From Rubrobacter tropicus (GTDB taxonomy: Bacteria > Actinomycetota > Rubrobacteria > Rubrobacterales > Rubrobacteraceae): a DNA stretch of 64,000 nucleotides. Below, piece after piece: positions 5,481 to 37,068 of this stretch. The DNA lies in contig NZ_CP045119.1 in NCBI RefSeq assembly GCF_011492945.1, positions 62,001 through 126,000 of the forward strand, read 5' to 3'. Within the stretch, counting starts at the first letter, position 1. Every line of letters starts with the position of its first letter. Under the pieces are notes generated by a model. It did no database searches. It was not told the origin of the DNA and was given only the letters and a program-made list of their open reading frames with translations. Made by a program: the position numbers and the translations under genes.

Positions 5481-6257
5481 GTGGGCTTTTGCGGGTTGGC
5501 CGCACGCCCCGGAGGGAGGCATCCACTGTCCGGTACAGGCGGAGGTAACGAGCAGGGACGGGGGGCCGGGCGGCTGTGGCCGCTCTTCGTGGGGCTGCCC
5601 CTGATCGCGCTTCTGGCAGTCGGCGCTATCGTGCTGTCGGGAGGCGGTGGGGAGGACCCTCAGGCGGCATCGGACGACCGGCGACAGGCCCAGAAGGAGC
5701 CCGCCGGCGAAGGCCGGACCGCAAAGCTCGGGACCCCCACGCTCGGGTCCGCGGACGCGCCTGTGGTCCTTACCGAGTACTCGGACTATCAGTGACCGTT
5801 CTGCGGCAAGTTCGCCCGTGAGGTGGAACCGGAACTGTACGAAAAGTACGTGAAGAGCGGGACGTTGAGGCTGGAGTGGAAAGACTTTCCCTACCAGGGT
5901 CGGGAGTCCGTGGACGCGGCCATCGCCGCCAGGGCCGCCCAGGCCCAGGGAAAGTTCTGGGAGTACCACGACCTCGTGTACGAGAACCAGTCCTCGGGCA
6001 ACAGCGGCGGCTACAACGACGAGAGCCTCACCGCGCTCGCCGAGGAAGCCGGCCTCGACACGCGGAGGTTCGAGGAAGACTTGAAGAGCGCCCGCTACGA
6101 GGGCGTGGTCCAGGCCGACTTCGAGGAGGGACAGGGGCTCGGCATCAGCGGCACGCCCACGTTCTTTATAAACGGCAAGGTGCTAGTCGGCCTGCAGCCG
6201 CTGGAGACTTTCGAGCGGGCTATAGAAGAGGCCGAGAGGGAGGCCGAGGGTGGTTGA
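5481..6257 (+). CDS. DsbA-like thiol-disulfide oxidoreductase with in-frame TGA (probable selenocysteine) at the active site
   Basis: The frame runs from 5481 to 6257 with one interruption, TGA at 5793-5795. Upstream it encodes an N-terminal membrane anchor (WPLFVGLPLIALLAVGAIVL), a hydrophilic linker, and the family sequence VVLTEYSDYQ. Immediately after the TGA it continues PFCGKFAREVEPEL. In DsbA-family thioredoxin proteins this position is the first Cys of C-P-F-C, so reading TGA as selenocysteine restores a U-P-F-C active site. The rest of the domain is intact, with a helical insertion and the cis-Pro region GISGTPTFFINGK near 6142-6180. The total is about 258 residues. The start is uncertain: GTG 5481 has a weak RBS and TTG 5496 is an alternative. 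The next gene, a CcdA-like carrier, overlaps its end. A nonsense mutation or sequencing error is the alternative. Confidence 0.8.
5796..5832 (+). promoter_or_regulatory. Candidate bacterial SECIS hairpin directly after the TGA
   Basis: Two overlapping stem-loops can be drawn just downstream of TGA 5793. (a) CCGTTC (5796-5801) pairs with GAAC-C-GG (5826-5832), enclosing GGC/GCC (5805-5807 with 5814-5816) and the loop AAGTTC with a central GT. (b) TTCGCC (5811-5816) pairs with GGT-G-GAA (5822-5828) around the loop CGTGA. Both put GU in the apical loop, as in known bacterial SECIS elements. Drawn by eye; not folded. Confidence 0.45.
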
Positions 6258-7113
6258 GGTCTCCCTCCTCGCCTCTTTCCTTGGGGGACTTCTCTCGCTC
6301 TTGAGTCCTTGCAGCGCCTTGCTGTTGCCGGCGTTCTTCGCCTACGCCTTCCAGTCGCGCTTCGAGCTGGTGTGGAGGACCGGGGTCTTCTTCTGGGGGC
6401 TCGTGGTTACGCTCGTCCCTTTGGGTATGGGACTCGCGGCCGTAAGCCGGCTCGTCTACGGTTACAGGGGGACCCTGATCCTGGTCTCGGGGCTTATCAT
6501 CATCGCCCTCGGCATACTCCAGATAGCGGGCCGCGGCTTCTCGTTCGTGCCTTCCCGGTTCGGAGGGGCCCACGGCGACTCCGTCATCTCCACCTTCGCC
6601 CTCGGGGCGGTCTACGGCTTCGCCGGCTTCTGCTCCGGGCCCATCCTTGGCGCGGTCCTTACCGTCGCCGCCTCATCCGGCTCGCCCATCTACGGCGCCG
6701 GGCTGCTCGCCACCTACGCGGCCGGCATGGCCGCCCCTCTGTTCGGGATAGCGCTTCTCTGGGACCGCTTCGACCTCGGGCGTCGCCGCTGGCTGCGGGG
6801 ACGCGAGATAACGCTGCCGGGCGGGGTGGGCGTACACTCCACCAACCTCGTCTCCGGCGTCATGTTCATCCTGCTGGGGACCCTCTTTATAGCGTTTCAG
6901 GGGACTTCGGCGCTCGAAGGCTTCTACGCCGCCAACGGCGCCACCGACCTCGCCTTCGCCGCGGAGCGCTGGGTGAACGGCCTCGCCGAGAGCATACCCC
7001 TCGCGGTGATGCTGGCCCTCGCCGCCATACTCTTTGCCGCGGTCGTGCTCTACAAGGCCTTGCGCCGCCTGCCCCGCCGGGGCAAGAAGCGCCCCGCTGA
7101 TCACAAAGGGTAG
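6250..7113 (+). CDS. CcdA/DsbD-family membrane thiol electron carrier
   Basis: A polytopic membrane protein of 287 residues that carries reducing equivalents across the membrane to extracytoplasmic thiol proteins. The N-terminal segment has the family's Pro-Cys signature (LLSLLSPCSALLLPAFFAYA). The second functional Cys lies in the repeat half (YGFAGFCSGPILGAVLT near residues 117-133), the two positions expected of the CcdA redox pair. Six or more hydrophobic segments are visible, and the C-terminus is Arg/Lys-rich. The GTG start at 6250 overlaps the stop of the DsbA-like gene, so the two are translationally coupled. This predicts that the carrier keeps the U-x-x-C protein reduced. Confidence 0.85.
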   Translation: MVEVSLLASFLGGLLSLLSPCSALLLPAFFAYAFQSRFELVWRTGVFFWGLVVTLVPLGMGLAAVSRLVYGYRGTLILVSGLIIIALGILQIAGRGFSFVPSRFGGAHGDSVISTFALGAVYGFAGFCSGPILGAVLTVAASSGSPIYGAGLLATYAAGMAAPLFGIALLWDRFDLGRRRWLRGREITLPGGVGVHSTNLVSGVMFILLGTLFIAFQGTSALEGFYAANGATDLAFAAERWVNGLAESIPLAVMLALAAILFAAVVLYKALRRLPRRGKKRPADHKG

Positions 7114-35571: not shown

Positions 35572-37068
35572 TTGGAGGGTAGTAACGAGGGAGGGTTGAG
35601 GGGCGGGGCCCTCTCCACGCTGGAGGCGATGGTCGTCTCGATGGGTTTCATGGCGCCTTCGGTGGCGATGTTCTTCAACACGCCGTTCATAGCCGGGTTC
35701 GCGGGTGCCGCGATGCCGCTTGCCATGCTGTTCTCGTTCGCGGCGGTCTTTCTCGTCGCCCTGGGGTTCTCGCAGCTCGCCAGCAGGACGGCGTCCGCGG
35801 GGAGCGTCTACGCGTTCGTCTCCAACGCCATAAACCCGAAGACGGGCTTCATGGGGATGTGGTTCTTCATAATCGGGTACGGCATCTTCGAGGCGGCGAC
35901 GTACTCTATCTTCGCCTCCTTCACCAGCGAGCTCATGGAGCGCACCTTCGGCCTCGCGGTGCCCTGGATCATCCCCTTCCTCGTCATCGCCGGGCTGGTC
36001 TACACGCTCTCGGTGCTCGGCGTCACGCAGTCCGTGCGGGGGGGACTCGTCTTTCTGGTGTACGAGATCGTCATCGTCACTATCTTGCTGCTCGCGGTGA
36101 TCTTCCAGGGCGGAGCCGAGGGGAACACGCTCGCGGTCTTCAACCCGGCGACGGGCAGCGGGATCGGCGGCGTCTTTCTTGGCATGATCTTCGGGATAAT
36201 GTCCTTTGTCGGGTGGAAGGCCGCGGCCTCTCTGGGCGAGGAGACGCGCGACCCGCACACGAGCATCCCGCGGGCCCTTCTCGGGGCGGTGGCCGTGATC
36301 GGGCTCTACTACGTCTTCGTTACCTACGCGGCTACCATCGGCTTCGGCCCCACCAACATGGACCGCTTCGCCGGGGACACCGCCTGGTTCGACACCCTGA
36401 CCCGCGAGTACCTGGGGGCCGGTTGGGCGCCTTTCGTCGGCATCGCCGCCCTCACCGGCGCGATAGCCTCGGCTATAGGCATCCACAACTCCACGGTCAG
36501 GCTCATCTACTCCCTCGGGCGCGACGGGGTGCTGCCGCGGGCGCTCGCGAAGGTGCACCCGACCCGCCAGTCGCCCTACGTGGCCGCTTCGGTCCAGGCC
36601 GGTTTCTCCGTGGTGCTCGGCATAGTCTTCAGCGCCTTCATCTTTCCGGATCCGGCGACCACCTACGGGTACTTCGGGGGGCTGGGGACGCTGGCCGTGC
36701 TCTTCGTCTATATCTTCATAAACGCCTCGGTCTTCCTGTACTTCTTCAGGAAGGAGCGCGAGAACTTCTCGGTGTTGCGTCACGCGGTCATACCGCTCGT
36801 CGCGACGGCGGCGGTGTGCTTGCCGATCTACGGGCTCATCTATCCCGTGCCCGACCCGCCGTTCAACCTGTGGCCGTACCTGATCGCGCTCTGGGCCCTG
36901 ATCGGCCTACTCTTCCTGTTCGTCATCTCCCGCCGCCGCCCCCAGCTGGTCGAGGTCATGGGCCGCGCCTTCTCGGAGTCCGGCGACGAGCCGGATACGG
37001 CGCAGGAGGACGTACTCGGGGCCAGGGAACGCCGGGAGCGGCCCGCCGCGGACCCCGCGGACAGGTGA
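35572..37068 (+). CDS. APC-superfamily amino acid/amine permease
   Basis: About 498 residues, twelve hydrophobic helices. The first helix has the APC unwound-region motif AMVVSMGFMAPSVAMFF, followed by FAAVFLVALGFSQLASRTAS and AGSVYAFVSNAI. The middle has FGIMSFVGWKAAASLGEE with the conserved Glu. The C-terminus is a hydrophilic tail. Substrate could be an amino acid or amine; context suggests a nitrogen compound. The start is uncertain: GTG 35530 and GTG 35542 are in frame; TTG 35572 is favoured because GAAGGGAG precedes it. It lies 15 bases before codA. Confidence 0.85.
   Translation: MEGSNEGGLRGGALSTLEAMVVSMGFMAPSVAMFFNTPFIAGFAGAAMPLAMLFSFAAVFLVALGFSQLASRTASAGSVYAFVSNAINPKTGFMGMWFFIIGYGIFEAATYSIFASFTSELMERTFGLAVPWIIPFLVIAGLVYTLSVLGVTQSVRGGLVFLVYEIVIVTILLLAVIFQGGAEGNTLAVFNPATGSGIGGVFLGMIFGIMSFVGWKAAASLGEETRDPHTSIPRALLGAVAVIGLYYVFVTYAATIGFGPTNMDRFAGDTAWFDTLTREYLGAGWAPFVGIAALTGAIASAIGIHNSTVRLIYSLGRDGVLPRALAKVHPTRQSPYVAASVQAGFSVVLGIVFSAFIFPDPATTYGYFGGLGTLAVLFVYIFINASVFLYFFRKERENFSVLRHAVIPLVATAAVCLPIYGLIYPVPDPPFNLWPYLIALWALIGLLFLFVISRRRPQLVEVMGRAFSESGDEPDTAQEDVLGARERRERPAADPADR

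Follow-up and report, generated by a model that had tools for sequence, protein, structure and literature searches.

The window, a 64,000-nt stretch of Rubrobacter tropicus DNA (contig NZ_CP045119.1, positions 62,001 to 126,000), carries on its forward strand a gene for a thioredoxin-like protein with an in-frame UGA in its predicted active site, directly followed by a ccdA-like gene. The features of the locus are as follows, in window coordinates.

5515..5519, plus strand: GGAGG, Shine-Dalgarno-like sequence, inferred from the orthologue alignment; a second GGAGG is at 5511-5515
5526..6257, plus strand: Sec-DsbA coding sequence, 243 residues and a TGA stop, with a probable CTG start and the UGA as predicted Sec at residue 90; Thioredoxin_4/DSBA domain, orthologues family-wide
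5574..5636, plus strand: N-terminal hydrophobic signal-anchor (LWPLFVGLPLIALLAVGAIVL), read from the sequence
5793..5795, plus strand: UGA in frame, predicted to encode selenocysteine at the first CXXC position of the UPFC active site; 19 orthologous genes share the TGA, and TGC/TGT stands in 7 orthologues and almost all distant homologues
5802..5804, plus strand: TGC, resolving Cys of UPFC, invariant in the orthologue alignment
5811..5827, plus strand: SECIS-like hairpin, UUCGCC - loop CGUGA (5817-5821) - GGUGGA; an outer helix of 3 bp may form (5804-5806/5829-5831)
6156..6158, plus strand: Pro in a GTP loop, at the cis-Pro site of the thioredoxin fold; G209 T210 P211 are invariant in the orthologue alignment
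6250..7113, plus strand: ccdA-like gene (DsbD transmembrane domain), sharing 8 nt with the end of dsbA; likewise adjacent in all 27 orthologous loci, two Cys invariant in 27/27

The TGA at 5793-5795 separates EYSDYQ from PFCGKFA in a single frame, which is otherwise open up to the TGA at 6255-6257. When read through, the frame matches Pfam profiles as a single domain, Thioredoxin_4 with 128.5 bits and, as the second-best match, DSBA with 79.4 bits; the part after the TGA scores 96 bits by itself, in a match that begins at profile position 26 and misses the start of the domain. The first-pass annotation had described one continuous DsbA-family protein without further disruption, in which the TGA takes exactly the place of the first Cys of CXXC, and this description is borne out, as is its expectation that a standard gene caller would drop the N-terminal anchor and start the protein at 5823: the mechanical ORF list gives 5481-5795 and 5823-6257. 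These two ORFs could in principle yield two products, a short N-terminal peptide ending at a regulatory UGA and a truncated DsbA starting from GTG 5823, which is usable as a start codon. However, the product from 5823 could not be an exported redox protein because it would begin past the signal-anchor, past the first strand and past all of CXXC, and the seven orthologues with Cys at the site are single proteins across it; we regard an arrangement of this kind as very improbable. Further open frames joined by a TGA and of good codon composition were listed for the window; the two long ones, at 37066 and 47347, each turned out to be the normal end of one gene with another gene behind it.

The start first proposed, GTG 5481, is probably wrong. 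Alignment of the orthologues favours CTG 5526-5528 behind the GGAGG at 5515-5519 as the probable start of translation, and in many orthologues a CTG, TTG or ATG at the aligned position is preceded, at a distance of about 4-7 nt, by a GGAGG-type motif. The signal peptide of the window protein does not end in a lipobox Cys, its hydrophobic segment being followed by VLSGGGG; in several orthologues a lipobox-like Cys takes the place of a plain anchor (LASC, LAGC, VAGC or TTSC; L012, L013, L041, L045). The thioredoxin domain was predicted by AlphaFold2 with a pLDDT >90 over most of its length, and the best PDB matches of the predicted domain are DsbA and TsdA of Corynebacterium diphtheriae, at about 36% identity. 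Profile match, alignment and predicted structure together place a thioredoxin fold with a helical insertion, the UXXC motif and the cis-Pro loop in the window protein. The gene product would be a membrane-anchored, extracytoplasmic DsbA/DsbG-like thiol-disulfide oxidoreductase with the active site U-P-F-C, in which, by comparison with the family, the selenol would be the attacking residue and Cys93 the resolving one.

The codon at the active site was compared among homologues. In the 39 family genomes examined, TGA is present at exactly this codon in 19 orthologous genes, spread over 18 genomes and five genera, and the protein beyond it is conserved. TGC or TGT is found at the same codon in seven orthologues; the orthologues carry either Cys or TGA, the alternatives that the first-pass annotation had suggested looking for. 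An apparent second UGA paralogue in genome G006 (L028) was left out of the count, its residue at the site being a normal Cys (ECPYT). Distant homologous sites from many phyla carry TGC/TGT in 104 of 108 cases and TGA in two, in a scan that is biased toward Cys because a Cys-containing peptide pattern was among the search patterns used; the two TGA sites belong to L062, from the same family, and to L076, from a Thermoflexales MAG (Chloroflexota). In the latter homologue (L076:2988-3581) the UGA likewise occupies the first CXXC position, and a ResA/TlpA-like thioredoxin adjoins the gene. No internal stop was found in matching homologues outside the family in 198 genomes of the phylum. When the Sec/Cys state was placed on a tree of 42 proteins, five unpolarised changes were needed, of which at least two are forced by well-supported branches. 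The XX dipeptide also varies: six UGA genes of one genus (L051, L052, L054, L056, L057, L060) have USGC, UGYC, UGFC or USQC where UPFC or UPYC would otherwise stand, variants never seen in the Cys orthologues, all of which have CPFC or CPYC.

These comparisons bear on the simplest alternative, that a nonsense mutation or a sequencing error interrupts a decaying Cys-DsbA gene. TGA is a single substitution away from TGC and TGT, and one of the seven Cys orthologues, in a draft assembly (G013:C44:6933-7625, L040), has a TAG in place of the Gln just before CXXC, so that such events do occur in draft assemblies; the catalytic codon of that gene is TGC, and a second copy in the same genome has UGA. 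Against decay stand the recurrence of the same TGA across five genera (19 genes, 18 genomes) with a conserved downstream protein, the complete selenocysteine machinery of the genome and the constraint on synonymous sites past the TGA (both below). Scattered disruptions in relatives, named beforehand as a sign of decay, were looked for among the orthologues and none were found, and the argument that a chance mutation would rarely strike this codon is upheld by its being TGA in 19 orthologous genes. Decay or error is therefore extremely improbable.

Downstream of the UGA, a candidate SECIS element was recognized. In the UGA genes, a 6-bp hairpin of the form UUCRCC-CGUGA-GGURRA starts 15 nt past the UGA, with its loop 21 nt past it; the loop and inner stem are invariant, nine bases (CCCGTGAGG) being unvarying. 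Bacterial SECIS elements have been described (PMC1088965) as hairpins shortly after the UGA whose small apical loop contains G, and the hairpin here fits this description. All six pairs are formed in 89% of the UGA genes, 57% of the Cys orthologues and 16% of synonymous recodings, and CGT encodes the loop Arg in 18/18 UGA genes compared with 4/158 Arg codons elsewhere in the same genes, figures that are descriptive only as the related sequences are not independent. The CGT bias is nevertheless what would be expected of a SECIS. The mean excess of synonymous identity reaches 0.64 over the 15 codons past the UGA, against 0.19-0.20 up- and downstream. The free energy of the hairpin is slightly better than that of synonymous recodings (mean z -0.7), and no excess of stability over dinucleotide shuffles was seen for the window sequence alone; the signal came only from the comparison between genes and not from the folding of a single sequence. 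Since no compensatory base change was counted in any pair among 18 sequences, covariation is not claimed, and the case for a SECIS is built on synonymous constraint, position and loop.

The genes required for selenocysteine insertion, a search for which the first-pass annotation had proposed, were all four found in the 4.58-Mb genome of the window. selA is located at C1:2570612-2571682 on the minus strand, selB adjoins it (L010:8706-10565; profile match of 314.5 bits, cut-off 242.25), and a tRNA-Sec with anticodon TCA (UCA) lies in the same cluster at C1:2568590-2568679. selD is present at C1:2796833-2797756 (L035) and itself contains a UGA at KAGUGSK, where SelD proteins usually have their Cys or Sec. 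An FdhA-like gene (C1:4196412-4197164, L173) has a UGA at ARIUHSS, the Sec site of formate dehydrogenase, and downstream of it a hairpin whose loop is GGUCU. In the family, selA was found in 22/22 genomes of good completeness, and selD with an internal TGA is widespread. For Rubrobacter xylanophilus, the part of PMC1794560 available to us reports five selenoproteins and names SelD among them.

The UGA might also be read as another residue, by codon reassignment or by readthrough with a near-cognate tRNA. UGA reassignment is known from other lineages, but the gene itself and many orthologues terminate at TGA, the genome encodes SelA, SelB and a dedicated tRNA-Sec, and the other two internal UGA codons found, in SelD and the FdhA-like gene, lie at textbook Sec sites, which leaves only a slight chance for this explanation. 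Retention of the UGA in 19 related genes, together with a complete selenocysteine machinery in the genome, shows that the gene is real; these findings, with Cys or TGA at exactly this codon in homologues, support the original selenoprotein reading. From sequence comparison, UGA 5793-5795 is very likely read as selenocysteine. SelB and Sec-tRNA(UCA) would decode it with the help of the hairpin beginning 15 nt past it.

The direction in which the protein works was considered from its gene neighbourhood. The ccdA-like gene follows Sec and Cys orthologues alike (27/27 loci), and its product scores 24.1 bits against PF02683 (DsbD_TM), just under the gathering cut-off of 27.1. It is followed in the window by a lipoate ligase-like gene (PF21948, 7034-7870), which was not found near the orthologue in L062. 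CcdA proteins carry electrons outward from cytoplasmic thioredoxin, and VKOR is the usual oxidant of actinobacterial DsbA, VKOR beside DsbA being the usual oxidative arrangement. The same genome has two VKOR genes, each directly beside a Cys-DsbA paralogue (C1:3933809-3934168 beside 3934198-3934713, and C1:2154958-2155311 beside 2155359-2155918). The paralogue at C1:2155359-2155918 (L188, minus strand) is split over two frames near AALAAGS/EQDLYW, which suggests a small frameshift, by mutation or sequencing error.

Because the CcdA-like gene adjoins the Sec gene and VKOR adjoins the Cys-DsbA paralogues, the Sec protein is more likely a CcdA-fed reductase or isomerase; a reductive or isomerase role with CcdA as electron donor is, on the evidence of gene neighbourhood, probable. 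Of the initial label of DsbA-like oxidoreductase, the fold and the selenoprotein assignment hold, but the CcdA-like operon partner points to a reductive role rather than to that of a classical DsbA oxidase. An oxidase, with the CcdA neighbour serving another partner, would agree with the resemblance of the fold and the UPFC motif to the oxidative DsbA/TsdA of C. diphtheriae; however, CcdA-type proteins carry electrons outward, the gene adjoins in all orthologous loci and VKOR stands beside the other, Cys-type paralogues, so that we consider an oxidase unlikely, though with a chance well above that of the alternatives discussed earlier. In the reductive reading, the CcdA-like membrane protein would hand cytoplasmic electrons to the Sec-S bond and the Sec-DsbA/CcdA pair would act outside the cytoplasm as reductase or isomerase, oxidative work being left to the Cys-DsbA paralogues next to VKOR. 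Taken as a whole, a Sec-DsbA decoded by SelB and linked to CcdA is the best explanation of the locus, to which we give a probability of about 90%. A broader and tentative proposal, which we hold at somewhat less than even odds, is that the family has two extracytoplasmic thiol systems, an oxidising one of Cys-DsbA and VKOR and a dedicated Sec-DsbA reduced by CcdA, and that Sec freed the XX dipeptide to vary.

Gene callers will truncate the Sec-DsbA and lose its active site throughout a bacterial family. The 19 Sec and seven Cys orthologues, which share the same operon partner, form a natural experiment on keeping or dropping selenocysteine in a thiol oxidoreductase, in a family where the Sec machinery has generally been retained, and thanks to the pairing with CcdA one can test directly which way electrons flow through a Sec-DsbA.

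That DsbA-like selenoproteins are known in other bacteria, as had been stated, agrees with the literature: UxxC DsbA-like and DsbG-like members were reported earlier in PMC1088965, PMC1794560, PMC9312934 and PMC13188914. A Sec-DsbA in the Rubrobacteraceae clade was not found in the literature search, and a plasmid search gave no match. The Rcas_1661 family of thioredoxin-like (seleno)lipoproteins (NCBIfam NF041057) is what the reviews PMC9312934 and PMC13188914 list as a DsbG-like UxxC selenoprotein; the window protein shares with it the Thioredoxin_4 domain, a UxxC with Sec first and a signal for export at the N terminus. The NF041057 model is matched by each of the 23 aligned orthologues, but the window protein scores 138.8 bits, below the curated cut-off of 190, and therefore belongs to a related group outside this equivalog; the neighbour also differs, CcdA-like here and a ResA/TlpA-like thioredoxin at the Chloroflexota UGA homologue L076. 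The DsbA-like selenoproteins of PF01323 (Sargasso Sea set, Desulfovibrio, Anaeromyxobacter) share the DSBA domain, Sec in UxxC and a SECIS downstream, but come from other lineages, and DSBA is only the second-best Pfam match here; this comparison is one of published descriptions (PMC1088965, PMC1794560). C. diphtheriae DsbA/TsdA (PDB 4pwo, 7unn) is closest in solved fold and sequence (36% identity, 153 bits), with Cys where the window protein has Sec. The Cys-DsbA and VKOR pairs of the same genome belong to the same fold family (about 40% identity) but have a Cys active site and a VKOR neighbour in place of CcdA. The Sec-DsbA is a family-wide addition to a kind of selenoprotein known elsewhere, rather than a new category, and the distinctive points of the group are its CcdA partner and its variable active-site dipeptide.
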